From Rhodothermia bacterium (GTDB lineage: Bacteria; Bacteroidota; Rhodothermia; Rhodothermales; UBA2364), in the NCBI GenBank assembly GCA_017303715.1, contig JAFLBZ010000027.1, forward strand, positions 1 to 61,254: a DNA stretch of 61,254 bases. Reading direction: 5' to 3'. Shown piece after piece: positions 18,456 through 55,268 of the stretch. A model generated the notes under the pieces. That model saw only the letters and a program-made list of their open reading frames with translations. It ran no database searches and was not told where the DNA came from. Both the position numbers and the translations under genes were made by a program. How positions within the stretch are numbered: the stretch's first letter is position 1; each line of letters starts with the position of its first letter.

Positions 18456-18474
18456 GGTTGGATAAAAGAAATAC

Positions 18475-18511
18475 AAAAGGGAAGGCATTGTCTTGAAATT
18501 CCTTCCCTTTT
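18475..18511 (-). terminator. Terminator between the Cys-rich copper gene and the multicopper oxidase gene
   Basis: AAAAGGGAAGG (18475-18485) pairs with CCTTCCCTTTT (18501-18511). On the minus strand it ends with a T-run, so it probably terminates or attenuates transcription coming from the Cys-rich gene. The oxidase gene then needs its own promoter or read-through. Confidence 0.7.
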
Positions 18512-29043: not shown

Positions 29044-29667
29044 ATGCTGACGGACATCAACCAATTAGACCTTTCACGGCAATACACCTATGCCGATTAC
29101 CTGAAGTGGGCTTTCCAAGAACGGGTGGAATTGCTGCGGGGGTATGTCTCTCAGATGTCGCCTTCGCCAAGCCGGATACACCAAGATATTTCGTGGCAAC
29201 TCCAGAAAATAATTGCATTTTATATTGACGGCAAAGCCTGCCGTGCATACACCGCACCATTCGACGTCCGGCTTTTGCTACCAGCAGATTTCCGCCTTTC
29301 TAAACGAGTGCGTCGCCAAGCCGTTAGCGATCACGAAATAATGACGGTCTTGCAACCAGATTTGTGTGTGATTTGCGATCTTGAGAAATTGGATGAACGG
29401 GGATGTTTGGGGGCACCGGATTTGGTGATCGAGATTTTGTCGCCGGGGAATACGCGCTCCGAGATGAAGGAGAAATTTTCGATTTATGAAGAAACGGGCG
29501 TGCGGGAATATTGGGTCGTACAACCCGAATACCGCAATGTGTTGGTCTATGACCGCAACCGAAAAGGGTTTTTTGTGGCACGGGATGTCTATTCGGAGGA
29601 AGACCGAATGGTGTCTTCCGTCTTTCCAGATTTGGGGATTGAACTTGGGGAGGTTTTCAGAACTTAA
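29044..29667 (+). CDS. Uma2-family (DUF820) predicted endonuclease
   Basis: 207 residues from the ATG at 29044, which puts the family start (YTYADYLKW) 14 residues in; an open frame to 28882 is not conserved. The PD-(D/E)XK-like core is visible: ELLRGYVSQMSPSPSRIHQ, PFDVRLL, LQPDLCVICD, APDLVIEILSPGNTRSEMKEK and YWVVQP. The D/E-x-K residues are D in QPD, E in VIEIL and K in the EKFSIY segment. Families like this are abundant in cyanobacteria and Chloroflexi and their role is unknown. It overlaps the convergent HlyD gene by 4 bases. Confidence 0.85.
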   Translation: MLTDINQLDLSRQYTYADYLKWAFQERVELLRGYVSQMSPSPSRIHQDISWQLQKIIAFYIDGKACRAYTAPFDVRLLLPADFRLSKRVRRQAVSDHEIMTVLQPDLCVICDLEKLDERGCLGAPDLVIEILSPGNTRSEMKEKFSIYEETGVREYWVVQPEYRNVLVYDRNRKGFFVARDVYSEEDRMVSSVFPDLGIELGEVFRT

Positions 29668-30983
29668 CGTTGCTCGATCCAGAGTTTACGGAGTTGTACA
29701 AATAAACGTTCTAAAAGCCGGAGGTCTTCGGTTATGATCTCGGCAGTTCCCGTCATTTCTGGTTTGTATTGTAAGGTCTTGCGTGTTGTTGTGATCAATT
29801 CTTGAGGCAATCCTATGTGGACAATGTACCTGCCGGTGGTTTCTTGTGCCGAGCCAACACGGGCCAAGGGCGATACCTGCTGAACCGTCCCCATGAGGTA
29901 GCCAAATTCATAGGCCGGATAAGCATCCATTTGAATACGTACCGATTGCCCCGTTTTGATTTTTCCGGTGTTTCCTGCCGGAATAAAGGCCCTGCCTATT
30001 AGAACACTGTGTTGGGTTCGCTGCGGAACAATGGTCATCACTTCCTCGCCTGCTTGGGCAAATTGTTCACTGTTTGTAAACTTGAAAAAGGCCACATCTC
30101 CCGTGGCGGGTGCTTTAAGCAGATAATTCAACTCCCATTCTTCTATGCTCCCTTTTAATAGCCGGAACGCATCGCGGAGGCCATTCACATATTGTTGCTC
30201 TTCCCGCGTTCTTTGCTGGTTTAACTCCAGAATACCTTGCCTATACTGTTGGGTTTGTGTGGCAAGTGCCGAGATTTGGGCTTTTTGATTTTCGACACTC
30301 CGCCTTGCCTGCAAAAGGGCCAATTCTTGGTCTTGGAGGGAGAGGCGCGGGATCGCCCCTGCACTATACAATTGCTTGTGGGTATTGTAGCGGCTTTGGG
30401 CAAGATTAAGTTCGCGCTCGGCCAAATTTAACTGACGGGTATAATCATTCCGAACAAGGGCTTGTTGGTTCATTTGTTGCTCAAACGCTGCAATCCGTGG
30501 CTCATAAGACCGAGACGAGTGGAAAAACCGCAATTCGTTCAGGCGCTGGAGGAATGTGGAATAATAAGGTTGTATCGGCCCAAGTTGTGGATTGGGGTTC
30601 AAAAAAGGCATTTCAACCAAGTTTAAGGCATTAACGGCATCTTCTATCGTTGGTAAAACACCCTTCAAGTCTAATACATCATTTGTTTTTGCCGGATTCT
30701 GAATAACCCCCAAAGGGGTGTCTTTTGCAACCGCTTTCCCTGCTTCCACCCAAAATTGTACGCGCCCACTACTACGCGAAATGACCGAAAACGGTGGATC
30801 GGCAGTGGTAATAACCACTTGGGCCGGGAGTACATCGGGATACCGGATGTACCAAAGTGCTACTACAATGCCCAAAATGATCAGAAACAAGACCGTCATC
30901 CCCCAGCGAATAATCCAGTGGGGTGGTTTGCCGATGATTTCCTGTACGGCTTCGCTACTACGATCGGTCTCTAATAAGGGCAT
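29664..30983 (-). CDS. HlyD-type membrane fusion protein of the C39-ABC exporter
   Basis: 439 residues from the ATG at 30983, 7 bases after the ABC gene ends; an in-frame start at 31049 would overlap that gene deeply. One N-terminal membrane segment (about 27-46) is followed by a biotinyl-lipoyl half motif (SRSSGRVQFWVEAGKAVAKDTPLG), a long coiled-coil hairpin (about 130-270, Q/R/L rich), the second lipoyl half (LLKAPATGDVAFFKF) and a beta-barrel domain. It links the inner-membrane exporter to the outer membrane. No TolC gene is nearby, so a distant one must serve. Confidence 0.88.
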   Translation of the reverse strand: MPLLETDRSSEAVQEIIGKPPHWIIRWGMTVLFLIILGIVVALWYIRYPDVLPAQVVITTADPPFSVISRSSGRVQFWVEAGKAVAKDTPLGVIQNPAKTNDVLDLKGVLPTIEDAVNALNLVEMPFLNPNPQLGPIQPYYSTFLQRLNELRFFHSSRSYEPRIAAFEQQMNQQALVRNDYTRQLNLAERELNLAQSRYNTHKQLYSAGAIPRLSLQDQELALLQARRSVENQKAQISALATQTQQYRQGILELNQQRTREEQQYVNGLRDAFRLLKGSIEEWELNYLLKAPATGDVAFFKFTNSEQFAQAGEEVMTIVPQRTQHSVLIGRAFIPAGNTGKIKTGQSVRIQMDAYPAYEFGYLMGTVQQVSPLARVGSAQETTGRYIVHIGLPQELITTTRKTLQYKPEMTGTAEIITEDLRLLERLFVQLRKLWIEQR

Positions 30984-30990
30984 TTTGGTC

Positions 30991-33525
30991 TTAGTCTCCC
31001 AATTCCAATTGGTTGCGAACAAGGTTAAAATAGATGCCGCCGCGTGCAACCAACGCCTCGTGGTTCCCCAATTCTACAATCCTACCTTGTTCCAAAACCA
31101 CAATCTGATCCGCATTCCGGACGGTACTCAAACGGTGTGCAATCACCACCACCGTCCTCCCTTTGAAGAAACGGTTCAGGTTCTGCATGATAATCGCTTC
31201 GTTCTCGGCATCCAGCGCACTGGTCGCCTCGTCGAAAAACAGGTATGCGGGGTTTTTATACAATACACGGGCAATGAGCAAGCGCTGTTGTTGTCCTTTG
31301 GAGAGACCACGCCCATCGTCCCCAATCTTGGTGTTAAATCCACTGGGTAGCGTCTCAATTAAAGGCAAAATATTGGCCATCATGGCCGCATACAACAACC
31401 GTTCTGGATCAACATTTTCTTCGCCCAAGGCAATATTGCGTGCAATGGTATCCGAGAAAATAAAGCCATCTTGCATGACGGTTCCACAATAGCGCCGCCA
31501 AACGCGGTTATCCAACGTATTCAATCCCACCGAACCCACATAAAGTTTACCACCTGAAGGTTCATAGAGCTTAAGTAGAAGTTTGAGCAAGGTCGTTTTA
31601 CCGCTCCCACTCGTTCCGACAACGGCAGTCACTTTTCCACTTGGAATCACCAAATTAATGTCATCCAGCGTTGGTTCCGTAAATGGGCCGCCATACCGAA
31701 AGGTGACGTGGTCAAGGCGAATGTCTCCGAAAGCGGGTAATTGTGTTAGGAGTGGTTCCTCTGCCGGTTGTTCGTCTGGCATGTCATAGATTTCTGCGAT
31801 GCGCTCTACCGCCATTTTGGCATCTTGTGCGGTGTGCATAAACCCAACCAACTGCCCCAAAGGTCCCGAAACTTGCCCTATGATGTATTGGATAGCAACC
31901 AATGCCCCCAAGGTGAGGTCTCCTTTGATGACCGCACTGGCCGTTAGATACGTTACCACAATGTTACTGAGTTGGCTCATGGCCATTAACCCAATGGTTT
32001 GGTATTGTTCCAAGGCAAGCCCGTTGGTACTTAGCCTAAACAAACGCGCCTGAATACGCTCCCAAGCCCATCGTTTTTGATGCTCAGCATTGTTGAGCTT
32101 AAGTTCTGAATAACCGGAAACAATCTGTACCAATTGGTTTTGGGTTCCGGCTTGTTCGGAGAATGCCCGATAATCCAGCTCCCTGCGTTTTTTAAGGAAG
32201 AGAGCCAACCAAGCAACCGAAACCAAAGAGGTGGCGATAAAGACCAAAAATATTTGCACATTATAGAACGCCAATACCGTTCCAAAAACAAATACATTCA
32301 CCAAAGAGAAGACCACCGAAAGCGTATTGGTGGTAAGAAAGGCTTCGATGCGTTGGTGATCGCCCATGCGTTGAAGCACATCACCAATCGTTCTCTGGTC
32401 AAAAAACGTAAGTGGTAACTTGGTCAATTTGATCAAGAAATCCGTCAATAACGCCAAATTTAAGCGGACTCCCAGATGTAGTAAAATCCATCGCTCAATA
32501 AATCCCAATGCCGTTTGCCCCAAAAAGAGGGCGACTTGTGCAATGATCATGAGCACCACAAAACTTAGGTTTTGCCGTTGAATCCCTTGATCTACAACAG
32601 CTTGAGCCACAAAAGGTGCTAATAGACTCAGGAAACTTCCTGCCAACATCCCAAAGAACAACTGTAGCAAGTAGCTTTTATATGACCGGAGATAACCAAA
32701 TAGAAAGCTCCATTTTCGGTTCCGTTCTTTTGGGACTTCATGTTCCCCAAAGTGCGGTGTTGGCTCCATGAGGAGCAAAATCCCCGCCAATTCATCGCCA
32801 TGATGGCCACTTGCCCATGCCTTTTCAAACTCACTGATGGTATAAGAAATGAGGCCATGTGCGGGGTCAGCCACATAGACATGCTTGCGGGTCACTTTAT
32901 AGATCACTACAAAGTGGTTGTCGCGCCAATGTGCGATACAGGGTACGGGCACTTCAAGCAGGCGCGAGACAGGCAGCCGAACGGCCAAGGTGCGCATCCC
33001 CACACTTTCGGCGCAATGTGCCATTCCCAATAGCGATACCCCAGATTTTTCGATATAACAACGCTCTCGTAGAAAGGGCAATGGATACGTTTTTCCATAG
33101 AACCGAAATATCATCTTAAGACAGGTTGGCCCGCAGTCCATCTCGTCTAACTGACGATAAAAGGGAAATTTGCCTTTTTTGGTACGAGGCTTCCACTTAG
33201 ACTCCTCTTCGATAACGTGCTCTTCGGTCTGAGGCTCCGGTTCTGGCTCCGGAAAACTGGGGGGCGTCGGTTCCGATAAATCTTTTCTTGGCGGGTTGGA
33301 GGGCTCGCCGTCAGATGCGGCAAAAGACTCAAAAACCTCTTCCCAAACGGTGTCTGGGGGAGGTAATGCGGTATTAAGTTCTTCTTTAACGGAGGTATTA
33401 AGGTCTTGTTCGTGTTGGCTTGTTAGCGAAAGACCAGAAACGATTACATTCTCCGCCTCCGGCATTTGGTCGCCAGAAGCCTTCTGTTTTGCTGCGTTTA
33501 AAAAGTCAAGTACGTAAACCTTCAC
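30991..33525 (-). CDS. Peptidase-containing ABC exporter (C39 family) with acidic N-terminal extension
   Basis: 844 residues from a GTG at 33525 (AAAGG about 9 bases before); an ATG at 33465 is an alternative. Residues 1-118 are an unusual acidic, Pro-rich extension. The C39 peptidase follows, with C131 (DEMDCGPTCL), H204 and D220 as the triad. Six membrane helices and the ABC domain come next: Walker A GTSGSGKTTLLKLL, signature LSKGQQQRLLIARVL, Walker B YLFFDEATSALD and the H-loop VIAHRLST. Such proteins cut double-glycine leader peptides and export the product. The HlyD partner follows. No leader-peptide gene was found nearby. Confidence 0.93.
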   Translation of the reverse strand: MKVYVLDFLNAAKQKASGDQMPEAENVIVSGLSLTSQHEQDLNTSVKEELNTALPPPDTVWEEVFESFAASDGEPSNPPRKDLSEPTPPSFPEPEPEPQTEEHVIEEESKWKPRTKKGKFPFYRQLDEMDCGPTCLKMIFRFYGKTYPLPFLRERCYIEKSGVSLLGMAHCAESVGMRTLAVRLPVSRLLEVPVPCIAHWRDNHFVVIYKVTRKHVYVADPAHGLISYTISEFEKAWASGHHGDELAGILLLMEPTPHFGEHEVPKERNRKWSFLFGYLRSYKSYLLQLFFGMLAGSFLSLLAPFVAQAVVDQGIQRQNLSFVVLMIIAQVALFLGQTALGFIERWILLHLGVRLNLALLTDFLIKLTKLPLTFFDQRTIGDVLQRMGDHQRIEAFLTTNTLSVVFSLVNVFVFGTVLAFYNVQIFLVFIATSLVSVAWLALFLKKRRELDYRAFSEQAGTQNQLVQIVSGYSELKLNNAEHQKRWAWERIQARLFRLSTNGLALEQYQTIGLMAMSQLSNIVVTYLTASAVIKGDLTLGALVAIQYIIGQVSGPLGQLVGFMHTAQDAKMAVERIAEIYDMPDEQPAEEPLLTQLPAFGDIRLDHVTFRYGGPFTEPTLDDINLVIPSGKVTAVVGTSGSGKTTLLKLLLKLYEPSGGKLYVGSVGLNTLDNRVWRRYCGTVMQDGFIFSDTIARNIALGEENVDPERLLYAAMMANILPLIETLPSGFNTKIGDDGRGLSKGQQQRLLIARVLYKNPAYLFFDEATSALDAENEAIIMQNLNRFFKGRTVVVIAHRLSTVRNADQIVVLEQGRIVELGNHEALVARGGIYFNLVRNQLELGD

Positions 33526-41994: not shown

Positions 41995-43057
41995 GGTTTT
42001 AATATGTTTTAAAAGATTGAAAAGGGTGAAATTGTGATTGGTTTACGAATAATTTGAGCAGGATATCTACTGCTTGCTATATTCATATTTAAGAGATAAC
42101 TGCCTAAGCGGACATGACTTTGTGAAGTGTGGCTTAGTGAAAAGACTTATTGTCGCATAACTTAAGATAGTTTACGCTTAAACTAAAAAAAAACAATCCG
42201 AATAGCAATACCTACCTAATTGCCTTACGTTGATGTAGCCAACAGATCAATGGTTTAATCGCCTAGCTTACTTTCTTTAAATCTTTTCCGGAGTGTGTAA
42301 GGTTGATTGTTTTTTGTAATTTGAATCACAATAAATGATTATATATAGTTATAATTAATTTATTTTTTTGAATATATTTTATAATTTTAATGATATTTAC
42401 AATTTTGCGTACATCAAATGAATTTGGATATCTTATGGTTTTTACAGCAAATAAAACGTCATATGTCTAATATAAATAAGATTCGGTGAACGGTACTTGG
42501 GCTAATCCAAAATCGCAACTAAAAAAATCGGACGGTACTTGAACCTGTCTAAAACTCGTGCTTTCGGCACGAAATTATAGCTCGGGTGTAGCCGGAGCCA
42601 CAATTGTTTACACCTTGTCGCCCGTTTTATCCTTCACACCTGGTTTCTTTCCCGGTTTTCAGCGCAAGATCAACCACATGAAACGCAAGCCTCTCTGGTT
42701 TGGTGTCTGGCTTAAAAAAATGTAATGGCCTTATAAAATGCCCATATAAGCTGTAAAAAAGCACTTTCTGGCTTCTCCAGCACCCCAAAAATGATTTGTC
42801 GGCCGCCTGTCTGGAATATGTCTGGTGAATTGGTGGGCTTGCTCAACAAGAATAGGTGGCCTACCCGCTTGGAATGTGCTACATTCGCAACCAAGTAACG
42901 AAAGCGCTTTTAGGTGAAGATTGGGTATCTGCTCAAATCATAAAATGCGAGCCGATAATACCGACTGCAGAAGCCAATTGTGGCTCAAGGCAACTTTTGG
43001 TATTGCCCGCAAATCCATTTAAACGCAACGGTCAACGCAATCAAAAAAAATATAGGT
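41995..43057. other. Long intergenic region upstream of the glucan operon
   Basis: About 1060 bases without a convincing gene. 42280-42480 is extremely AT-rich. A 10-base direct repeat ACGGTACTTG occurs twice (about 42490 and 42533), a hairpin TCGTGC/GCACGA is at 42556-42572, and a perfect palindrome is at 42901-42910. The segment 42600-42720 has a balanced composition and may be a remnant of a lost gene, but no similarity could be named. Confidence 0.5.
42901..42910. promoter_or_regulatory. LacI/cre-like palindromic operator
   Basis: AAAGCGCTTT is a perfect palindrome set in CGAAAGCGCTTTTA, close to the core of LacI-family sites. It lies 148 bases before the first gene of the glucan operon. 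It suggests sugar-responsive control by a LacI-type regulator encoded elsewhere. Confidence 0.4.
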
Positions 43058-46000
43058 ATGAAGCAGTTTTTAAGGGTCTTATCCCTCCTCGCGCTACCGG
43101 TTATTGCATCTGCACAGCCCGCTAAAACCACGTTGCAGCACGATGCAGCAGGTTATAGGCTTCTTGTAGATGGAAAGCCATTTATGATGAATGGCATGAA
43201 TTGGGACTATTTCCCCGTCGGGACAAACTACAACTATAGCCTGTGGAAGCAGTCAGATGATTTTATTCGGAGAGCCTTAGACTACGAAATGACGCTTCTC
43301 AAAAATATGGGGGTAAACACCATTCGGCAATACTATGGGGTTCCGGCCAAATGGATTCAATACATCTACGAGAAGCATGGTATTTATACGGTACTCAACC
43401 ATTCTTACGGGAGATATGGTCTAAATGTAGATGGCGCTTGGATGGCCAATACCGACTATTCCAACCCAAGGGTTCAAGAAATTTTGATTTCGGAAGTCGT
43501 TAAGATGGTGGAGGAAACCCAAAATACACCCGGCGTGCTGCTTTATCTATTAGGAAACGAGAATAACTATGGGCTTTTCTGGGAAGGCGCGGAAACCGAA
43601 GATATCCCGATGGAAGACCGGAAAAGCACCAAAAAAGCAATCCATTTATATAAGGCATTTAATCAGGGTGCGCTTGCTATGAAGAGCAAGAACAAAGACC
43701 TTTTGGTATCCTTATGCAACGGGGATTTGTTGTTTTTAGACCTGATTGTAGAAGAGGCAAAAGATGTGGATATTTTAGGCGTTAACATGTACCGTGGCAC
43801 TTCGTTCACTGGTGCTTTTGAGGACGTAAAAAATAAGTTAAACAAACCCCTATATTTCACCGAGTTTGGCTCGGATGCCTTTAATGCCATTACCCATAAA
43901 GAAGACCAAGAAGCGCAAGCGGGCTTTTTGTTGAGCAACTGGAAAGAAATTTATGAACATGCCTATGGTATGGGGAAAACAGGTATTTCTTTGGGCGGGT
44001 TGACCTTCCAATTTAGTGATGGCTGGTGGAAATATGGCCAGACCCTTAATTTAGATGTGCATGATCCCAATGCTTCATGGGCGAACGGTGGTTATAGCTT
44101 TGACTATGTGAAAGGCGAAAACAACATGAACGAAGAATGGTTTGGAGTATGCGCAAAAGGGAAAACAGACGAACAAGGCTTCTATCAACTTTACCCCAGA
44201 ACCGGATATTTCATTCTTCAACAAATTCATAAATTCGACCCTTATAAATCGGGCAGTAAAAACGAAATTGACCGCTTTTTTAGCAATATATCGTTCGTAG
44301 AGGCCACACAAAAAGCAAAGGCGGAGCGTGCCATTGCACAGAGCGAAAATGCAAACACCATTCGGCTGAGTCGTCTAACCGCAGATTTCTCGACCTTTCA
44401 TACGGGCGGGAAACTGATTACCACGCCAGCTACACCGATTGCCAATAGCACCTCATACCCAAACCGCTTAGGTTTTGACCATTTACAATCATTTTATGTG
44501 GGCGTAGAGGTTAATCCGACCAGTACCGTGTCTGCAAATGTGGAGTTTAATGTTTTGGGTCATGTTCCCACCAATCCAATAGACGAGGTGTTTTATGAAA
44601 ATCGTGGGCGCGATGTGGTGGTAGAAACCACAGATGGGCCTTTGACGCTGCGCTCAAATGATCGAATTCAGCTTTATCGCTCCAAATTTAATTGGAAACA
44701 AAAATATTTTGACCTCACCGGATTTTATCGCACGGGCCACTACCATTGGGGCTACGAAGGCGACTTCTTCGGCCTATATCCTGAAGCCAACTATGGCCCC
44801 AATATTGATCTATACAATGGCGAAGCGCCTGCCGGTTTTGAGGTTGAAGGCCGCAAATTCTTAAACGGGCTGAAAATGGCTTATGGCCCCGAATTGTGGT
44901 GGGGCGCTAACCCAGCTATTTTACTCAAATACAGTAAAACCTTAAAGAAGGCCACTTGGACGGGGATTTTCCATGAGGACTTGGGCGAATCCGGCAATAT
45001 CAACAGTTCTTTTGCCATCCCGCAACCTAAGACAAGGAGGCTCACCTTGCACATGAACCGAGCATTCGAGAAATTGAAAGTGGATTTGGGGGGCATCTGG
45101 GCAGGTAAACCCCTCGAAGGCCGCACGTTCCAACTGGCACGAGAAGTAAACGGCCAAACCAAAGTGTTTCAGGACAAAATCAAACCCGATGATATGTGGG
45201 GCGGTAAACTTAAATTAATGTACCAATCCGGTAAAATCGGCTGGTACGGACAAGGAGCCGTTATGGGATTGGTCGCAAACGGAGGTGCAGATTACACCAA
45301 AACATTTACCGGATGGACGCTAAAAGACAGCGGGAGCGGCAACCAATACAATGTCTTAAGCGGTTTGATTTATAACGTCGGCCATTTTCAGATTGCCCCC
45401 AATTTCCTTTGGCAAAAACCCATCGAAGGGCCAATCACCAAAGGTGTTCCTGCGCCGGGAAGGCCACGAAATATCTTAGACGACCCCTTTGTTGTGCGGG
45501 CAAACCGTGAGCAAATGGCTGGCGAAATCTTGGTTACCTACGATCCAACGCCAGCCACTTGGATGTATGAGTGGGACAACGATAATGCAGAGGATGCCGC
45601 GCTTGCCCTAAGTGCCGGATTTGTGTACCGACATTTACCTACCTCCCAAGATGCTGCTATCGGTATCCAACAAGATGGGCGTTCTGTCTATGCCTTTGAT
45701 GGTGCAGCGCCGGCAAAAGACCTCTGGGAAGCACGTGCCAGAATTGTCTCCAGGCCTGTTCCACATTTTGGCTTGATTGCCAACCTCTATGGCGGAACGG
45801 CACAAGCCAATGGGAGCGACCCCAGAACCGTAAACCGTGCAGGAATTGACCTACGCATGATCTACAAAAAAATGAAACTCAACTACTTCTTCAAACTCAA
45901 TGACTGGGGGCCTTTCGACTATCATCGGGACTTTAACCTTACCTATCCGATGCAACAAATGTTAGACGTCTCCACCGAATTAGGCAGGCTGAATTTCATT

Positions 46001-46183
46001 ATGCTTCCCACGACCAAAGTCGGAATAAGAGGCACGTACAGAACCTTAGACCGATATTCCCCGCGATATAGCCCCGTGCTTGTAATTGATCCTGATGGCA
46101 ATTTTATTCCAAATCCAAATGCCATTGGTTTTAGCAACGGTAAAGAATGGGAAATCAGAACCTATATCCAATTTAATCTCTAA
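43058..46183 (+). CDS. Clan GH-A-like glycosidase fused to a predicted outer-membrane beta-barrel
   Basis: 1041 residues from the ATG at 43058, the start that gives a normal signal peptide (VIASAQ, 20). Residues about 25-430 form a TIM-barrel glycosidase. E168 in LLGNENNYG is the probable acid/base and E269 in YFTEFGSDA the nucleophile, the layout of clan GH-A families such as GH2, GH5 and GH158. From about 440 to the end there are repeated amphipathic strands with aromatic girdles (YFDLTGFYRTGHYHWGYEG, KATWTGIFHEDLG, LNYFFKLNDWG) and a terminal YIQFNL, as in outer-membrane barrels. I know no standard architecture with this order. It would tether the enzyme at the membrane or supply a pore. 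First gene of the glucan operon; the next starts 5 bases on. Confidence 0.8.
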   Translation: MKQFLRVLSLLALPVIASAQPAKTTLQHDAAGYRLLVDGKPFMMNGMNWDYFPVGTNYNYSLWKQSDDFIRRALDYEMTLLKNMGVNTIRQYYGVPAKWIQYIYEKHGIYTVLNHSYGRYGLNVDGAWMANTDYSNPRVQEILISEVVKMVEETQNTPGVLLYLLGNENNYGLFWEGAETEDIPMEDRKSTKKAIHLYKAFNQGALAMKSKNKDLLVSLCNGDLLFLDLIVEEAKDVDILGVNMYRGTSFTGAFEDVKNKLNKPLYFTEFGSDAFNAITHKEDQEAQAGFLLSNWKEIYEHAYGMGKTGISLGGLTFQFSDGWWKYGQTLNLDVHDPNASWANGGYSFDYVKGENNMNEEWFGVCAKGKTDEQGFYQLYPRTGYFILQQIHKFDPYKSGSKNEIDRFFSNISFVEATQKAKAERAIAQSENANTIRLSRLTADFSTFHTGGKLITTPATPIANSTSYPNRLGFDHLQSFYVGVEVNPTSTVSANVEFNVLGHVPTNPIDEVFYENRGRDVVVETTDGPLTLRSNDRIQLYRSKFNWKQKYFDLTGFYRTGHYHWGYEGDFFGLYPEANYGPNIDLYNGEAPAGFEVEGRKFLNGLKMAYGPELWWGANPAILLKYSKTLKKATWTGIFHEDLGESGNINSSFAIPQPKTRRLTLHMNRAFEKLKVDLGGIWAGKPLEGRTFQLAREVNGQTKVFQDKIKPDDMWGGKLKLMYQSGKIGWYGQGAVMGLVANGGADYTKTFTGWTLKDSGSGNQYNVLSGLIYNVGHFQIAPNFLWQKPIEGPITKGVPAPGRPRNILDDPFVVRANREQMAGEILVTYDPTPATWMYEWDNDNAEDAALALSAGFVYRHLPTSQDAAIGIQQDGRSVYAFDGAAPAKDLWEARARIVSRPVPHFGLIANLYGGTAQANGSDPRTVNRAGIDLRMIYKKMKLNYFFKLNDWGPFDYHRDFNLTYPMQQMLDVSTELGRLNFIMLPTTKVGIRGTYRTLDRYSPRYSPVLVIDPDGNFIPNPNAIGFSNGKEWEIRTYIQFNL

Positions 46184-46187
46184 TGCA

Positions 46188-48059
46188 ATGAAAAAAAATT
46201 CTTTAACGGCTCGCATAAATAGTTGGTCGGTAATGCTCTCTTTGCTGTTTTTTACAGCTTGCGAAACGGATATTACCGGATTAGAAGAGGCCGCCTATCC
46301 CACAAATGGAGATGTATTTTTGGATACCTTCAGCAGTGGGTTAAATTACGCTGCCTTTGGTGGCTCCGTGCCTACGGCTTTCCAAGTAGATAAAAAAGTA
46401 AGCTATAACAACTCGCTCGCTTCCATGCGGGTGGACGTTCCGAACACCAATGATCCAAATGGCGCATATGCAGGTGGGTCTTATTTTACCTCCATGCCTC
46501 GGAATTTGTCGTCTTTTGATGCCCTTACGTTTTGGGCAAAGTCCTCCCAAGCTGCTACAATAGACGTTGTCGGCATTGGAAATGACTTAGGGGAAAACAA
46601 GTATCAGGCTTCCATATCAGGTCTGCAAGTAAACACAACTTGGAAAAAATATATTATTCCGATCCCTGATCCTTCTAAATTAACGGCTGAAAAAGGCATG
46701 TTTTTCTTCTCAGAAGGCCCCGAAAATGAAAAGGGATACTCCTTCTGGATAGATGAGGTTAAATTTGAAAAATTAGGAACGGTTGCACACGCACAAGCCA
46801 AAATATTAGACGGGCAAACCCAGAGTATTACGTCATTTATTGGTGTAAGCAATATAATTGGTGGCTTGGCTTCTGTTTTTAATTTACCGAATGGAGTCAA
46901 CCAAGCCGTTAATGCTTCTCCGCATTATTTTACATTTTCTTCTTCCAATAATACCGTCGCAACTGTAAACCAACAAGGCGCTATTAATATTATTGGAACT
47001 GGCTCAAGCACCATAACAGCCACTCTTGGTAATACGCCAGCAACGGGTTCAATGGTGATTACTTCACGCGGGAATTACATCGCAGCACCAACACCAATAC
47101 GGGCTGCAAAAGATGTAATATCACTCTTTAGTGAGGCGTATTCTAATGCCCCTGTTGATTATTATAATGGCTATTGGGCGCCTTATCAAACCACACAATC
47201 TTCCGATTTTATTGTAAATGGAGATCGGGTTCTAAACTATACCAATTTCAATTTTGTGGGTATCCAATTTAGTTCACCTACCATAAATGCTTCGGCAATG
47301 TCGCACCTACATTTGGATATTTATTTGCCTAATAATATTGCGGCTGGAACAGCCCTGAAAGTGCAGTTGGTGGACTTTGGCGCAGACAATGCTTTTGGTG
47401 GTAATAACGATGTTAGTGCTACTATGACCTTCACAATGCCAGCCTTACAAAGCCAAAAGTGGGTAAGTTTAGACATCCCATTCCGGGATCTCCCAACCCT
47501 AACCTCGCGCAAAAACCTTGGCCAAATCATTTTTGAAGGCACCAATATCTCAAGTTTTTACATGGATAATGTGTACTTTTATAATGATGGGAGTGTGATT
47601 TCCTTGGAGCCATCAACCGCTGCACCAACCCCTGCTAGGCCCGCCGCCAATGTGATTTCCATCTTTAGCGATGCCTACGCAAACGTGGCCGGTACAGACC
47701 TGAATCCCGGCTGGGGACAAAGTACCCAAACTTCGGTAGTAAAAATCGCAGGCAATGACACTTATAAAATGTCTGGACTTAACTACCAAGGAATTCAATT
47801 TGGCAGCAATCAAAATGTGGCTGGAAAAACCAACTTCCATATTGATTATTACACGGCAAATTCAACCTTACTGAATGTGTATCTCATTAGCCCTGGCCCT
47901 GTGGAGAAAGCCTATAAACTGACCGTTCCGTCAACTGGTGGATGGAGAAGTATTGACATTCCGCTCTCTACTTTTGCTCCAGTAAATATGTCCAATATCT
48001 TTCAAATAAAATTTGATGGGAATGGAGATGTTTATGTGGATAATATCTACTTTTATTAA
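46188..48059 (+). CDS. Multi-module glycan-binding lipoprotein
   Basis: 623 residues from the ATG at 46188, with lipobox LFFTAC and C25. Module 1 (about 35-195) is a beta-sandwich with SFDALTFWAKSS and WIDEVKFEK. A bacterial Ig-like (Big_2-type) domain follows (about 205-295). Two homologous modules come next (about 300-463 and 480-623), both with APTP, (D/N)VIS(L/I)FS-x-AY, GIQF, a WxSxDIP strand and a closing DNxYFY. This last module type recurs in laminarin-degrading proteins of Bacteroidota. No catalytic residues are evident, so it is probably a surface glucan-binding protein in place of SusD/SusE. It starts 5 bases after the fused glycosidase gene. Confidence 0.75.
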   Translation: MKKNSLTARINSWSVMLSLLFFTACETDITGLEEAAYPTNGDVFLDTFSSGLNYAAFGGSVPTAFQVDKKVSYNNSLASMRVDVPNTNDPNGAYAGGSYFTSMPRNLSSFDALTFWAKSSQAATIDVVGIGNDLGENKYQASISGLQVNTTWKKYIIPIPDPSKLTAEKGMFFFSEGPENEKGYSFWIDEVKFEKLGTVAHAQAKILDGQTQSITSFIGVSNIIGGLASVFNLPNGVNQAVNASPHYFTFSSSNNTVATVNQQGAINIIGTGSSTITATLGNTPATGSMVITSRGNYIAAPTPIRAAKDVISLFSEAYSNAPVDYYNGYWAPYQTTQSSDFIVNGDRVLNYTNFNFVGIQFSSPTINASAMSHLHLDIYLPNNIAAGTALKVQLVDFGADNAFGGNNDVSATMTFTMPALQSQKWVSLDIPFRDLPTLTSRKNLGQIIFEGTNISSFYMDNVYFYNDGSVISLEPSTAAPTPARPAANVISIFSDAYANVAGTDLNPGWGQSTQTSVVKIAGNDTYKMSGLNYQGIQFGSNQNVAGKTNFHIDYYTANSTLLNVYLISPGPVEKAYKLTVPSTGGWRSIDIPLSTFAPVNMSNIFQIKFDGNGDVYVDNIYFY

Positions 48060-48077
48060 TCTGTAAAATCCAAAGAA

Positions 48078-48902
48078 ATGAAAAATCACATGCATACAGT
48101 ACGTTTTTTCGTTCTCAGTTTCCTTCTGCTCTCATTCACTTCTTGTGATGTTGATACAACACAAAAAACTGGGAAGAGGAACTGGCAATTGGTTTGGTCA
48201 GATGATTTCGATGGGGTCGTAAGTACTCTACCAGATGCCAAAAAATGGGCATTTGATATTGGTAATAGTGGCTGGGGTAATAGTGAATTACAATACTATA
48301 CCAATAAACCGGAAAATGTCGCTCTTGACGGCAGTGGAAATCTGGTCATTACAGCCCGAAAAGAGTCGTTTGGTGGTGCCGCTTTTACCTCGGCGAGAAT
48401 TAAAACACAGGGGCTTTTTGCTCAAAAATATGGACGCTTTGAGGCGCGTCTTAAAACACCCTATGGACCGGGAATCTGGCCAGCATTTTGGTTGTTGGGA
48501 GACAATATTAACGAAGTCGGTTGGCCTCAATGTGGCGAAATTGACATCATGGAACTTAGGGGACAACAACCCAACGTCATACACGGCTCTGTACACGGCC
48601 CCGGGTATTCCGGCGGGAATGCCATTACCGCCCCTCATGGCCTGATGAATAGTCGTTATGATTCAGACTTTCATGTGTTTGCAATAGAATGGAATGAAGA
48701 CAGCATAGACTATTATGTGGATGATTATTTATACCATAGACTTAAAAAGTCAGAGGTCAAAGGTACATGGGTATATGATCATCCATTTTTTATCATCTTA
48801 AACGTTGCTGTTGGGGGAAATTATGTAGGATTCCCTACTGATCAGACCCCATTCCCACAAAAAATGATCATTGATTACGTAAAAGTATATCAGGAAAATT
48901 AA
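48078..48902 (+). CDS. GH16 endo-beta-1,3-glucanase (laminarinase) lipoprotein
   Basis: 274 residues, with lipobox LLSFTSC and C23 (an alternative start at Met5 does not change this). The GH16 catalytic motif is GEIDIMELRG with E154 nucleophile, D156 and E159 acid/base, the extra Met being the beta-bulge form typical of laminarinases. WGNSELQYYT, GRFEARLKTPYGPGIWPAFWLLG and ILNVAVGGN are the usual cleft segments. It probably acts on the outer surface on laminarin-type or mixed-linkage glucan. It is third in the operon. Confidence 0.93.
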   Translation: MKNHMHTVRFFVLSFLLLSFTSCDVDTTQKTGKRNWQLVWSDDFDGVVSTLPDAKKWAFDIGNSGWGNSELQYYTNKPENVALDGSGNLVITARKESFGGAAFTSARIKTQGLFAQKYGRFEARLKTPYGPGIWPAFWLLGDNINEVGWPQCGEIDIMELRGQQPNVIHGSVHGPGYSGGNAITAPHGLMNSRYDSDFHVFAIEWNEDSIDYYVDDYLYHRLKKSEVKGTWVYDHPFFIILNVAVGGNYVGFPTDQTPFPQKMIIDYVKVYQEN

Positions 48903-48933
48903 ACAAATATTTCGGTATAATATTCACAAGGGT

Positions 48934-51900
48934 ATGAAACAAGTTTTAATGGACAATACCCCATTTTATCAAATTGAATATTTTGATAAAATGAGGCCAT
49001 TTTTCATGACTATTCTAAGTTCCTCCAATCATTGGATGTTCATTTCGAGTAATGGTGGACTTACTACTGGAAGAACCAGTTCAGACTTTTCGCTTTTTCC
49101 GTATTATACCGAAGATAAAATTACAGATGCGCACGAGCATACAGGCCCTAAAACCATCTTGAAAGGTCATGATAGATTAGATGGATGGATATGGGAGCCA
49201 TTCTCGGAAAAAAAACAGTCTCATTTTGACATAAAGCGTAACCTTTACAAAAGTATTTATGGAAATCAGATTGTTTTTGAAGAGGTAAACAAAACGCTTG
49301 GACTTGTTTTTAAATATCAATGGTCTAATTCTGAAGAATATGGATTTATTAGAACTTCTACAATCCATAATATTGGTGATATAGACCATAAAATTGAAGT
49401 CTTGGATGGTTTGCAAAATGTGCTTCCAGCAGGTGTTGGAAGTGATTTGCAAAATCATTATAGCAATCTGGTGGATGCCTACAAGCAAACTGAGCTAATC
49501 GAAAATGGAAGACTTGGAATTTATGCTTTATCCGCCATTATTGTGGATCGTGCAGAGCCAAGCGAAGCACTAAAAGCCAATATCATTTGGGCTTATGGTT
49601 TAGAAAATGCCCAAGTTTTGTTGTCTAATTTTCAGCTTCAGTCATTCAGAAATGGCCTTGAGATTCAACCAGAAATCGAAAATAAGGGAGAGAAAGGTGC
49701 TTTCTTCTTGGTTGATACCGTAGAGGTTAAAAAAAATAAAACAGCGACTTGGTACATCGTAGCAGATGTAAACAAAAGTCATGCGCAGGTGGTCACATTG
49801 TGTGAGAAACTCGAAAATCCGATGCAACTCATGGTAGAAGTACAAAAAGATGTTGATCAAGGAACGAGCAACTTAATTCAATTGGCTGCTGCGGCTGATG
49901 GCCTTCAAATGACTTCAGATACCTTAAAGGATACCCGACATTTCTCGAATGTCATGTTTAACATTATGCGAGGAGGGGTTTTTGAAGACCATTATCAAGT
50001 CCAAAAATCAGATTTTATTTCGTATTTAAAAAAAGCAAATATAAAAATTTATAATGAATCTTTAGTGGAATTAAGTTCTTTACCAGATAAATTCCCATCT
50101 CAATTATTGGAAAAACTTCCTGCTACAAAACAAAAAATAGATTTTAAGCGGCTGTGTAGGGAATACTTACCGCTATATTTTAGTCGCCGCCATGGAGACC
50201 CATCGCGACCTTGGAATAAATTTTTTGTAAACACTAAAAATGAGCTTAGTGGTGCAAAAACTTTAGATTATCAAGGTAATTGGCGCGATATATTTCAGAA
50301 TTGGGAAGCACTTGGTAGGTCTTTTCCTGATTTCGTTGAAGGTATGGTGTATAAATTTCTGAACGCATCTACTTTTGAGGGCTATAATCCATATCGCATT
50401 AGTAAAGATGGCTTCGATTGGGAAGTAATTGAGCCAGATGACCCTTGGGCTTATATTGGCTACTGGGGCGATCATCAGGTTATTTATTTGCTAAAATTTT
50501 TAGAATTTCTTGAGCAATACCAGCCTGAATCCCTAAAGAATCTATTGGATAAAGAAGAATTTGTTTATGCAAATGTGCCTTATAAAATAAAAAAATATAC
50601 TGACATTCTTCAAAATCCAAAAGATACCATCACATTCGATCATAAATTAGATGTACAAATCAAAGAAGAAAAATCGAGAATAGGGGCTGACGCATGTCTT
50701 TTGTACAACGAAAGTCATCAAATACATCATGTGAATTTTTTTGAGAAAGTATTGGCCGTTGTCCTCTCTAAAATCTCTAACTTTATTCCAGAAGCTGGAA
50801 TTTGGATGAATACGCAGCGCCCAGAGTGGAATGATGCCAATAATGCTTTGGTTGGGAATGGGGTCTCGATGGTTACGTTGTGTTATTTGCGAAGATTCTT
50901 GGCTTTTTTCCAAGAAATAATCCATAAAACTGAACTAAGTGAAATAAAAATCTCGCAAGAATTGGTGGATTATTATAAGAATACCAGAAATATTTTGGAA
51001 GAAAATGTCTCACTTCTTGCATCAAAAATAAAAGACAGCGATCGGAAAATAATCGTAGATCAATTAGGCGAAGTGGCCAGTTCGTATCGGTGGCACATCT
51101 ACCAACATGGGTTTTGGGGCAAAAAACGTAGCATCTCCCTTGATGGGATCAAGAAGTTTATCAACCTCAGTTTACAGTATGTAGATCATTCCATTCGTGC
51201 AAATGAAAGGCAAGACGGCTTATATCATGCTTATAACATTATGTCGGTTGAGGAAGAAAGCGTCTCTATTTCTAGATTACCGGTAATGTTAGAAGGTCAG
51301 GTAGCTGCTTTGAGTGCAGGCATTTTATCTGGAAAACAAGCCGTTCAACTCTTGGTTGCGTTAAAAAATAGTCCACTCTATGTTACAAACCGGAATAGTT
51401 ATCTTTTATACCCTAATAAAAGACTACCGAGTTTTATTGAAAAAAATACATTTGGAGAAGATAAATTAAAAGAAATGAACTTTCTCCAAGAATTGTTAGA
51501 AAAGAAAAACTGTGACATCATAGAGAAAGACATTAAAGGAAAATATCATTTCAATAAAAATTTCAAAAATATTTATGATTTAAAAACTGCTTTATCCGAA
51601 GCGGAATTTGCAAGCTATATTCACTATTCCAATTCTGAATTGGAAAAAGTATATGCGCTATATGAAAAAATATTTAACCATAAGTCATTTATGGGACGTT
51701 CCGGCACTTTCTATGCTTTTGAGGGCTTAGGCTCCATTTATTGGCACATGGTTTCGAAATTATTACTTGCCGTAAACGAAAATATTTTAAAAGCGCATCA
51801 GGAAGGTGAAGATGAAACCTTAATACTTGCATTGGTCGAACGTTATTACGACATTTATGAAGGGATTGGAACACATAAAAAACCACAAGATTACGGCGCA

Positions 51901-52341
51901 TTTCCTACGGATGCTTATTCACATACACCCATGAGGCGTGGGGCGCAGCAGCCGGGTATGACGGGCCAGGTTAAAGAAGACATTATTTGTCGTTGGGGCG
52001 AACTTGGTATTGGTATAAACCACGGTCAGCTATCTTTTAGTCCCAAGTTCTTAAAACACAAAGAGTTTAAAGGTGAGCCTTTTGTTTTTTCTTATTATGA
52101 TTTAGATAATAAGTTTAATACGTTAGAAGTAAAACCCAACAGTTTGGTGTTTACATATTGCCAAATTCCCATTGTTTATCAAGTTGGAGATGAAAATAAA
52201 ATACTCGTTTCTATGGCCGCAGGAGAAAGTCATACTTTTGAAGGGAATGAATTGCCCCTTTCGTTAAGTAAAGCCATTTTCCTTCGTGAAAAAAAAATAA
52301 AGTATATTCGGGTTATCGTCAAGTCTGAACAACTTATTTGA
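48934..52341 (+). CDS. Large inverting beta-glucan phosphorylase, GH149/GH161-like
   Basis: 1135 residues, no signal peptide, so cytoplasmic. The size and motifs fit the GH94-related beta-1,3-oligoglucan phosphorylases: an N-terminal beta-sandwich with DGLQNVLPAGVGSDLQN and IVDRAEPSEA, then an (alpha/alpha)6 barrel with FSRRHGDPSRPWNKF, GNWRDIFQNWEAL with D452 as likely general acid, EPDDPWAYIGYWGDHQ, and RPEWNDANNALVGNG. The C-terminal domain has PTDAYSHTPMRRGAQQPGMTG, probably phosphate binding. It would release glucose-1-phosphate from imported oligosaccharides. The gene is clearly AT-richer than the genes before 48000. Confidence 0.8.
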   Translation: MKQVLMDNTPFYQIEYFDKMRPFFMTILSSSNHWMFISSNGGLTTGRTSSDFSLFPYYTEDKITDAHEHTGPKTILKGHDRLDGWIWEPFSEKKQSHFDIKRNLYKSIYGNQIVFEEVNKTLGLVFKYQWSNSEEYGFIRTSTIHNIGDIDHKIEVLDGLQNVLPAGVGSDLQNHYSNLVDAYKQTELIENGRLGIYALSAIIVDRAEPSEALKANIIWAYGLENAQVLLSNFQLQSFRNGLEIQPEIENKGEKGAFFLVDTVEVKKNKTATWYIVADVNKSHAQVVTLCEKLENPMQLMVEVQKDVDQGTSNLIQLAAAADGLQMTSDTLKDTRHFSNVMFNIMRGGVFEDHYQVQKSDFISYLKKANIKIYNESLVELSSLPDKFPSQLLEKLPATKQKIDFKRLCREYLPLYFSRRHGDPSRPWNKFFVNTKNELSGAKTLDYQGNWRDIFQNWEALGRSFPDFVEGMVYKFLNASTFEGYNPYRISKDGFDWEVIEPDDPWAYIGYWGDHQVIYLLKFLEFLEQYQPESLKNLLDKEEFVYANVPYKIKKYTDILQNPKDTITFDHKLDVQIKEEKSRIGADACLLYNESHQIHHVNFFEKVLAVVLSKISNFIPEAGIWMNTQRPEWNDANNALVGNGVSMVTLCYLRRFLAFFQEIIHKTELSEIKISQELVDYYKNTRNILEENVSLLASKIKDSDRKIIVDQLGEVASSYRWHIYQHGFWGKKRSISLDGIKKFINLSLQYVDHSIRANERQDGLYHAYNIMSVEEESVSISRLPVMLEGQVAALSAGILSGKQAVQLLVALKNSPLYVTNRNSYLLYPNKRLPSFIEKNTFGEDKLKEMNFLQELLEKKNCDIIEKDIKGKYHFNKNFKNIYDLKTALSEAEFASYIHYSNSELEKVYALYEKIFNHKSFMGRSGTFYAFEGLGSIYWHMVSKLLLAVNENILKAHQEGEDETLILALVERYYDIYEGIGTHKKPQDYGAFPTDAYSHTPMRRGAQQPGMTGQVKEDIICRWGELGIGINHGQLSFSPKFLKHKEFKGEPFVFSYYDLDNKFNTLEVKPNSLVFTYCQIPIVYQVGDENKILVSMAAGESHTFEGNELPLSLSKAIFLREKKIKYIRVIVKSEQLI

Positions 52342-52350
52342 GTTTACGTC

Positions 52351-53844
52351 ATGAAAAAGTTTATTTTTATAATTTTATTACTTATTGTCTCACAAATGGC
52401 TTATTCGCAAAGCAAAAAATGGCAGGTAAATATTTGGGAAACCTCTGCAACTGGTAACGCAATGGTGGAATTAAATGTGGGGAATAAATCGCAATCCCCA
52501 GATGCTGTAATTCGAATTCAACCAGAGCTGAAGTTCCAAAAAATCTTAGGCTTTGGAGGTGCATTTACAGAAGCAACAACTTACCTATTATACAAACTTA
52601 GCAAAGTAAATCGCGACAAAATCTTACAGGCTTATTTTGGAGATGCTGGTGCAAAATATTCTCTTTGTCGAACACCAATAAATTCTACAGATTTTTCATT
52701 GGATCACTATGCGTATGCAATGGTTCCGGGTGATAAAAAACTAAAACATTTTGATATTAGGAAAGACGAAAAGCACCTAATCCCCACGATAAAAGAGGCT
52801 CAGAAAATTTCTACAGAAGGATTTAAATTAATAGCTTCTCCTTGGACTGCACCACCTTGGATGAAAGACAACAGCCATTGGGTGGGTGGAAAGCTAAAGC
52901 CGGAGTATTATCCCACTTGGGCTTTGTATTTTTCTAAATATTTGGATGCTTATAAGAAGCATCAGATACACTTCTGGGGTGTTACAGTCGAGAATGAGCC
53001 GAATGGTAATGGTAATAATTGGGAAAGTATGCTTTTTTCGCCTCAAGAAATGACCCAATTTGTACAATATCATTTAGGGCCTCACCTTAAAAAAAATGGG
53101 TATAAAGACATAAAAATTCTGGGGTACGATCAAAATAGAGCCGATTTAAAAAGCTGGGTGGATGAAATGTATCGGACGCCAGAAAGCAGTCAATATTTTC
53201 ACGGAACTGCCATTCATTGGTATGAAAGCACCTATGATTATTTTCCAGATGCATTAGATTATGCACACTATAAAGCACCAAATAAACATTTAATCCAAAC
53301 AGAAGCATGTATTGATGCAGAAGTTCCTGTTTGGCAAAATGACCAATGGTATTGGCAACCAAATGCAACTGATTGGGGATATGATTGGGCGCCAGACCAC
53401 GAAAAATATTTACATCCAAAATATGTACCCGTTTATCGTTATGCGGAAGATATAATCGGTGGATTAAACCATTGGGTTGAAGGGTGGATAGACTGGAATA
53501 TGGTTTTGGATAAACAGGGTGGGCCGAATTGGTTTAAAAATTGGTGTATAGCGCCGATTATTGTTGATCCGGAAAAAGATGAAGTCTATTTCACCCCATT
53601 GTACCACGTTATGGCACATTTCAGTCGCTTTATAAGGCCCGGTGCGCATCGGATTGGTTTTTCAAATATAAACAGCACACTCGTTGCAACGGCTGTCGAG
53701 AACCCAGATAAATCAATCATTCTTATACTGCTGAATAAGGATAAAAATGCCAAAAATATAGCGTTACACTTAAATGGTTTTTCTCAGGTTTTAACAATAA
53801 ATCAAGAAAGTTTGCAAACCATAATCCTTAAACCCTCTAATTAA
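52351..53844 (+). CDS. GH30 exported glucanase/glucosidase
   Basis: 497 residues, with a signal peptide ending at MAYSQ (20) and no lipobox, so probably periplasmic. GH30 features: FGGAFTEATTYLL, SPWTAPPWMK, acid/base E216 in VTVENEPNGN, and nucleophile E318 in LIQTEACID. W-rich GLNHWVEGWIDWNMVLD and a C-terminal beta-sandwich (about 420-497) follow. The best guess is a beta-1,6-glucanase or beta-glucosidase removing side chains of laminarin. It lies 9 bases after the phosphorylase gene and shares its AT-rich composition. Confidence 0.9.
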   Translation: MKKFIFIILLLIVSQMAYSQSKKWQVNIWETSATGNAMVELNVGNKSQSPDAVIRIQPELKFQKILGFGGAFTEATTYLLYKLSKVNRDKILQAYFGDAGAKYSLCRTPINSTDFSLDHYAYAMVPGDKKLKHFDIRKDEKHLIPTIKEAQKISTEGFKLIASPWTAPPWMKDNSHWVGGKLKPEYYPTWALYFSKYLDAYKKHQIHFWGVTVENEPNGNGNNWESMLFSPQEMTQFVQYHLGPHLKKNGYKDIKILGYDQNRADLKSWVDEMYRTPESSQYFHGTAIHWYESTYDYFPDALDYAHYKAPNKHLIQTEACIDAEVPVWQNDQWYWQPNATDWGYDWAPDHEKYLHPKYVPVYRYAEDIIGGLNHWVEGWIDWNMVLDKQGGPNWFKNWCIAPIIVDPEKDEVYFTPLYHVMAHFSRFIRPGAHRIGFSNINSTLVATAVENPDKSIILILLNKDKNAKNIALHLNGFSQVLTINQESLQTIILKPSN

Positions 53845-53846
53845 TC

Positions 53847-55268
53847 ATGAGTAACCAGACAAATCAGGGTGTACCAACCATCGAAAAATTAGCATTTGGT
53901 GCTGGCCATTTGGTGAATAACCTTTTTCCGGGCGCATTGGGTGTTTTTTCTTTTTTCTTGCTAACAGGCTTCGGAATTGATCCCGTTTATGCAGGGATGC
54001 TGTCTGCCATTCCGCGCTTTTTCGATGCCCTATCGGATCCTATTATGGGATTTGTTTCTGACAATACAAAGTCTAAATGGGGCAGGAGAAGACCTTATAT
54101 TTTTGCGGGAGCTATTTTGGCTGGTATTTTCTTTTTTATTCAATGGCAAATGGACGAAGCCAATGGAACTGTTTTTAATTTTTGGTACTTCTTGATTATG
54201 TCCATTATTTTCATTTTGTTTAATACCATGTTTTCTACCCCACTCATTGGTTTAGGCTATGAAATGACCAGTGATTATAAAGAAAGAACAAGGCTAATGG
54301 GTTTTTCCCAAACGGTTAGTCAGTTGGCGTGGATGATTGTTCCGTGGTTTTGGGTGTTGGTTGCTGATCCAAATTTATTTTCTTCGCAAGCTGAGGGGGT
54401 TAGGGTTTTATCTATTATTGTAGGGATTGCATGTGCCGTTCTGGGTATTTTACCTGCCATATTTTGTAAGGAAGTAGCTGCCGCGCATATTGAAAATCAA
54501 GCCGAACTCACATGGAAAAATACGTTTAATAACCTTACAAAATTGTTCAAAGATGTTAAGAATATGACCAAGAATGTTCCTTTTATGCGGCTGTGTGGGG
54601 CTACCTTCTTGGTCTTTAATGGTTTCCAAATGGTGGCTTCTTTTAGCATTTTTATTATTGTTTTTTACATGTATAATGGTAGTTATGAGGCTGCAGGAAC
54701 GCTACCCGCTTGGTTTTCGACCATTAGTGCCTTAGCAACTGCTTTTTTGGTTATCCCAATCGTTACATTTTTAGCCAATAAGTATGGCAAACGTAATGCT
54801 TTTGTGATTTCTACGGCCATTTCTATTGTGGGCTATTTGCTCAAGTGGTGGGGTTTTAACCCAACAAATCCTTGGATGATCTTTATGCCCGTACCATTCA
54901 TTGCATTTGGATTGGGGGGACTTTTCACGTTGATGATGAGCATGACGGCAGACGTTTGTGATCTGGATGAATTGGAGAATGGGATGCCTCGCAAAGAAGG
55001 CACTTTTGGGGCAATCTATTGGTGGATGGTGAAATTAGGACAAGCGTTGGCGTTGTTTTTGGGTGGTATTGTGCTAAAAGTGGTTGGATTTGACCAAAAT
55101 GCGGCAGTACAGGCAGCTGAAACCATGACCCTCTTGCGGATGTGCGACATTGCCCTACCCGCGATAACAGCGGCTCTGGCCATTTGGGTAATGTGGAATT
55201 ATGACCTTAGCGAAGAGCGAGCACATGAAATTAAAGCGGAATTGGTGCGTCGGAGAGGTGAGTTATAA
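53847..55268 (+). CDS. GPH-family sugar:cation symporter (MFS)
   Basis: 473 residues with about 12 membrane segments. The glycoside-pentoside-hexuronide signature is present: ALSDPIMGFVSDNTKSKWGRRRPYI (written in part), with the Asp of the cation site, and GMPRKEGTFGAIYWWMVKLGQA in the second half. It would take up gluco-oligosaccharides across the inner membrane to feed the cytoplasmic phosphorylase. It begins 3 bases after the GH30 stop and closes the operon at a bidirectional terminator. Confidence 0.88.
   Translation: MSNQTNQGVPTIEKLAFGAGHLVNNLFPGALGVFSFFLLTGFGIDPVYAGMLSAIPRFFDALSDPIMGFVSDNTKSKWGRRRPYIFAGAILAGIFFFIQWQMDEANGTVFNFWYFLIMSIIFILFNTMFSTPLIGLGYEMTSDYKERTRLMGFSQTVSQLAWMIVPWFWVLVADPNLFSSQAEGVRVLSIIVGIACAVLGILPAIFCKEVAAAHIENQAELTWKNTFNNLTKLFKDVKNMTKNVPFMRLCGATFLVFNGFQMVASFSIFIIVFYMYNGSYEAAGTLPAWFSTISALATAFLVIPIVTFLANKYGKRNAFVISTAISIVGYLLKWWGFNPTNPWMIFMPVPFIAFGLGGLFTLMMSMTADVCDLDELENGMPRKEGTFGAIYWWMVKLGQALALFLGGIVLKVVGFDQNAAVQAAETMTLLRMCDIALPAITAALAIWVMWNYDLSEERAHEIKAELVRRRGEL

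Follow-up and report, generated by a model that had tools for sequence, protein, structure and literature searches.

We analyzed a 61,254-nucleotide stretch of DNA from a Rhodothermia bacterium (the window) and found a six-gene operon whose sequence supported a SusCD-less phosphorolytic route for the utilization of a putative beta-1,3(1,6)-glucan substrate. The first gene of the operon encodes a glycoside hydrolase domain fused to a predicted 26-strand outer-membrane barrel, and on balance we favor the reading that entry across the outer membrane most likely occurs through this self-contained enzyme-porin. A wider proposal is more tentative: such fusions may constitute a phylum-wide, TonB-independent beta-1,3-glucan importer, in which one polypeptide would combine a substrate-specific 26-strand channel with a periplasmic glucanase that traps the incoming chains by cutting them.

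Beta-1,3-glucan is a sugar polymer of algae and fungi. Expression of SusC/SusD serves as an indicator that Bacteroidota are using glycans, and loci without SusCD were counted as incomplete PUL subtypes by Kappelmann and colleagues (PMC6298971). If the proposal is correct, the SusC/SusD marker overlooks a common route of laminarin uptake, which is hidden under a GH2-like beta-glycosidase label, and the fusion would exemplify physical coupling between an outer-membrane channel and a polysaccharide hydrolase.

Gene content of the operon

The six genes span 43058-55268 on the plus strand (Table 1), and the gaps between them are 4, 18, 31, 9 and 2 bases. An earlier note on this DNA had described six same-strand genes with gaps of 3-31 bases; the gene calls and family matches bore out the genes and the upper gap value, while the smallest gap was 2 bases rather than 3. 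Because both flanking genes, encoding a type IX-sorted protein upstream and proS downstream, sit on the opposite strand, we consider the operon complete.

Table 1. Coordinates of the operon genes, the parts of the fusion protein and other features of the window
Feature	Position	Strand	Description or evidence
Enzyme-porin fusion, 1041 aa	43058-46183	+	Signal peptide, GH158-like TIM barrel and predicted 26-strand outer-membrane barrel
Fusion, TIM barrel	residues ~24-412
Fusion, helix	residues ~413-432
Fusion, barrel	residues ~435-1040
Fusion, catalytic residues	Glu168 and Glu269
Predicted surface glycan-binding lipoprotein, 623 aa	46188-48059	+	Lipobox FFTAC; Big_2; repeated beta-sandwich-like modules
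GH16 lipoprotein, 274 aa, predicted surface endo-beta-1,3-glucanase	48078-48902	+	PF00722 7e-28
GH149 beta-1,3-glucan phosphorylase, 1135 aa, no signal peptide (cytoplasmic)	48934-52341	+	NCBIfam NF058639 1658.8 bits; solved relative 6hq6/6hq8
GH30, 497 aa, signal peptide; predicted periplasmic beta-1,6-glucosidase or glucanase (debranching)	52351-53844	+	PF02055 5e-79
GPH-type MFS_2 inner-membrane symporter, 473 aa, predicted for gluco-oligosaccharides	53847-55268	+	PF13347 3e-63
Stretch of ~1 kb lacking a clear gene	42000-43057
Multicopper oxidase	16242-18488	-	C-terminal OMP_b-brl match, E 1.5e-4, below the Pfam gathering score
C39-peptidase ABC exporter adjoining HlyD-type adaptor	29664-33525	-	Peptide/bacteriocin-type export system

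The GH149 protein matched its family model over the full length, with a score to be compared with the curated NCBIfam equivalog cut-off of 1150, and a phmmer match to the solved 6hq6 covered residues 3-1127. This equivalog, together with the GH16, GH30 and GPH genes, agrees with the phosphorolytic beta-glucan route that the note had claimed. Neither SusC nor SusD was found anywhere in the window, and the operon offered no outer-membrane candidate besides the fused barrel, both as claimed earlier. The linked SusC and SusD of a canonical SusCD-defined PUL are absent from the operon, and the co-directional CAZymes and surface binding protein by which a PUL is also recognized are present.

Architecture of the fusion protein

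An AlphaFold2 model of the fusion protein, built on 45 homologues (mean pLDDT, 70.7), contained a TIM barrel, a helix and then strands, in keeping with the earlier claim of a barrel fused to a glycosidase. The TIM domain belongs to clan GH-A, and among solved chains the profile search ranked GH158 first (E 6.5e-4, ~20% identity). The GNE and TEFG motifs of the domain both align with GH158, so that the Asn-Glu acid/base and the Glu nucleophile of that family are present in alignment; E168 and E269 are invariant and correspond to the catalytic residues E137 and E220 of BuGH158 (PMC7157763). In structure comparison GH158 led (Z 26.2; BuGH158, Z 25.0), with a GH2 beta-glucuronidase tied within 1 Z. 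The sequence and the model place the domain closest to GH158 endo-beta-1,3-glucanases; its assignment to that family is tentative, and we refer to it as GH158-like. The Pfam match of the TIM barrel was PF02836 (GH2_C), and no other GH2 domain matched. We rejected a GH2 assignment, since the N-terminal sugar-binding and Ig-like domains are absent and the signal peptide leads directly into the TIM barrel.

When the C-terminal region was modeled alone with AlphaFold2 on 97 homologues, 26 strands formed a barrel without a plug (pLDDT, 82.7; pTM, 0.79). TonB-dependent transporters have a Plug domain and a 22-strand barrel. A Pfam domain search of the fusion found no match to the Plug or TonB_dep_Rec families, and with 26 predicted strands rather than 22, a TonB-dependent transporter identity of the barrel was rejected. 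Structure matches at Z 12-15 included AlgE, Occ/OprD porins, an usher and maltoporin. Because structure comparison found no close solved relative of the barrel (TM ~0.35), a channel function is not backed by homology.

The loops of the modeled barrel alternate, the odd ones being mostly long and the even ones mostly 2-3 residues. From this alternation and the general rule for outer-membrane barrels, the N terminus of the barrel, and hence the TIM domain, is predicted to be periplasmic unless it is threaded through the pore. Conservation on the long-loop side was no lower than in the strands (0.78 versus 0.72; Mann-Whitney p 0.0018, uncorrected for relatedness), and in most strands the lipid-facing positions were less conserved than the lumen-facing ones. 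As modeled, a barrel with conserved long loops and lumen is unlike a passive anchor.

Relatives of the fusion, SusCD and published loci

A protein search of bacterial genomes found at least 585 relatives of the fusion protein; the best 80 of these, mostly from Bacteroidota, align along almost their entire length at 59-72% identity. The fusion was carried by ~35 of the 392 genomes of a phylum sample (about 9% of sampled Bacteroidota genomes), and in each of the 37 genomes with a barrel match, the barrel occurred solely in fusion with the GH domain; two of these genomes hold truncated remnants. In-frame stops or a partial barrel were seen in the fusion genes G166:C314:2205-3626 and G269:C53:1337-3225, and in G166 a GH149 gene comes directly next; the two look like stages in the loss of the barrel, unless they reflect breaks in the assembly.

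The six-gene arrangement is not a matter of chance, and its gene order recurs in dozens of genera. The conserved order is fusion, lipoprotein, GH16, GH149, (GH17), GH30 and symporter, with the lipoprotein gene directly 3' of the fusion in 108/111 loci and a Y_Y_Y/LuxR-type regulator directly upstream of the fusion in many relatives. The window copy has neither GH17 nor the regulator. By sequence it falls beside Flavobacterium croceum (72%), away from two genomes of its own genus (63%), its GC content is 0.36-0.46 compared with 0.47-0.54 for most neighboring genes, and its flanking genes are not common to a same-genus locus. These three features disfavor vertical inheritance within the genus, and because of them a recent horizontal acquisition of the operon is likely. 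The low-GC operon is preceded by the stretch without a clear gene that is listed in Table 1.

SusD was sought within 6.6 kb of the fusion in 81 deduplicated loci whose upstream sequence reached 6.6 kb or more, and it was absent from 75 of them. The six loci with SusD were L090 and L143, L144, L145, L148 and L149, the last five being one family, a Flavobacteriaceae-like clade that carries both SusCD and the fusion; L068 had a TonB-receptor-like gene alone, without SusD. The earlier note had suggested checking whether SusC/D is consistently absent from such loci, which held for most of them and failed in L090 and the five-locus clade, so that the earlier interpretation as a whole was partly supported. 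In the unbiased phylum sample, 23/28 fusion loci were without SusD.

SusCD is also missing from most of the 20 GH149 loci that have no fusion (SusD was present in L197, and a TonB-receptor-like gene in L184, L198 and L199), and such loci are common in the same order. The absence of SusCD is thus not specific to fusion loci, which weakens a strict replacement argument; since GH149 loci with neither SusCD nor fusion are common, the lack of SusCD alone needs no barrel to explain it. Strict complementarity between fusion and SusCD was ruled out by these loci and by the six that have both. In L182-L192, from other families of the same order, a protein of ~450-500 aa usually directly precedes GH149; it is weakly related to the GH domain of the fusion (31-54 bits), is accompanied by neither barrel nor SusCD, and perhaps represents a further GH158-like lineage.

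Nine relatives consist of the GH domain without the barrel (~450 aa), and barrel presence or absence changed at least four times on the tree. Eight of the nine barrel-less loci had enough sequence for comparison of their neighbors with those of 96 fusion loci. The lipoprotein gene was found in 0/8 barrel-less loci and in 95/96 fusion loci, while a same-strand GH16 gene was found in 2/8 and 95/96, respectively. Both barrel-less loci that keep GH16 (L138 and L142) have SusC-SusD just upstream. Presence of the barrel is thus tied to surface capture, and capture without the barrel has SusCD. Since the lipoprotein is lost with the barrel and the loci keeping GH16 have SusC/SusD, the pattern for the barrel is that of an entry module in the outer membrane with a putative role in transport, in a comparison of few and related loci where a block deletion would remove neighbors together.

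The beta(1,3)-glucan utilization locus of Bacteroides uniformis comprises SusC-SusD-SGBP-GH16_3-GH158-GH3 and an HTCS (PMC7157763). It shares with the window locus a surface glycan-binding protein, a GH16 enzyme and a GH158-type clan GH-A domain, and the upstream regulator of many relatives is a further likeness. However, the window locus lacks SusC/SusD, its GH158-like domain is fused to an outer-membrane barrel, and it has phosphorolysis by GH149 and a GPH symporter where B. uniformis has GH3. The laminarin PUL of Muricauda and Formosa (LuxR, 'GH2', GH16, GH149, GH17, GH30_1 and MFS; PMC13188888, PMC6246565) has the same enzyme set in a similar order, and the Muricauda 'GH2' is probably this fusion, judging from its position and the Pfam GH2_C match, although the domains of the fusion do not bear out that published label. 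The barrel goes unmentioned in these papers, the GH17 and regulator are missing from the window locus, and the Formosa clusters, unlike the window locus, were reported beside TonB-dependent receptors and SusD. CAZyme clusters of Bacteroidetes with GH149 but no susCD had been pointed out by 2018 (PMC5827456); the relevant passages of that paper describe GH149 with GH16/GH17/GH30 and no SusCD, and these passages name no outer-membrane component, unlike the fusion of the window. Both these SusCD-less GH149 clusters (PMC5827456) and the Muricauda cluster (PMC13188888) are already in print. Searches of open-licence papers turned up no account of the barrel or of any GH-barrel fusion.

Proposed route and alternative explanations

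In the route that we propose, a laminarin-type glucan would be captured and cut at the cell surface by the glycan-binding lipoprotein and the GH16 lipoprotein, and the resulting oligosaccharides would pass through the 26-strand barrel with its conserved long loops and lumen. The GH158-like domain, predicted by topology to lie in the periplasm beneath the pore, may shorten the incoming chains and so make the flow one-way. Beta-1,6 branches would then be removed by the periplasmic GH30, the linear oligosaccharides imported by the GPH symporter, and phosphorolysis by the cytoplasmic GH149 would yield glucose-1-phosphate and glucose.

The barrel might instead be a mere outer-membrane anchor or display device for the glucanase domain, with oligosaccharides using general porins or other receptors. 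This would fit the lipoprotein signal on the barrel-less relatives L134, L135, L139 and L142, which suggests that membrane attachment of the enzyme matters. However, a barrel of 26 strands with conserved loops and lumen far exceeds the needs of an anchor, its predicted periplasmic N terminus is ill-suited to surface display, and where it has been lost the surface lipoprotein is gone too, usually along with GH16, a pattern that a transport module would be expected to show; we regard the anchor explanation as unlikely. It was also considered that an unlinked SusCD or another TonB-dependent transporter does the uptake, leaving hydrolysis and the cytoplasmic steps to the operon. One genomic SusD adjoins alpha-amylase, SSF symporter and FG-GAP proteins, the other lies in a locus without glucanases, and linked SusCD is missing phylum-wide, all of which make this explanation quite improbable, even though the rest of the genome holds dozens of matches to TonB-dependent receptors and two SusCD pairs, whose SusD genes, on contigs C1 and C22, are the only ones in the genome, SusCD adjoins the fusion in some relatives, and scattered, unlinked SusCD can serve laminarin in Maribacter (PMC11345257).

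There is very little to recommend the idea that the fusion remodels or exports the cell's own beta-glucan, as a transglycosylase with an export pore, rather than importing a foreign one. The top structure match of the barrel by Z is the alginate exporter AlgE (Z 14.9), and weak matches to GH72, a glucanosyltransferase family, occurred in 10/45 fusion members, but the operon consists of a catabolic phosphorylase, a symporter and glucanases, with no glucan synthase, and a Formosa cluster, whose order is largely that of the Muricauda cluster, is laminarin-induced (PMC13188888, PMC6246565). Entry through the enzyme-porin remains the reading that we prefer.

Two further features of the window are listed in Table 1. 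The multicopper oxidase, with its C-terminal OMP_b-brl match, is possibly a second enzyme-barrel fusion, and the exporter with its adaptor makes up an export system of the peptide/bacteriocin type.
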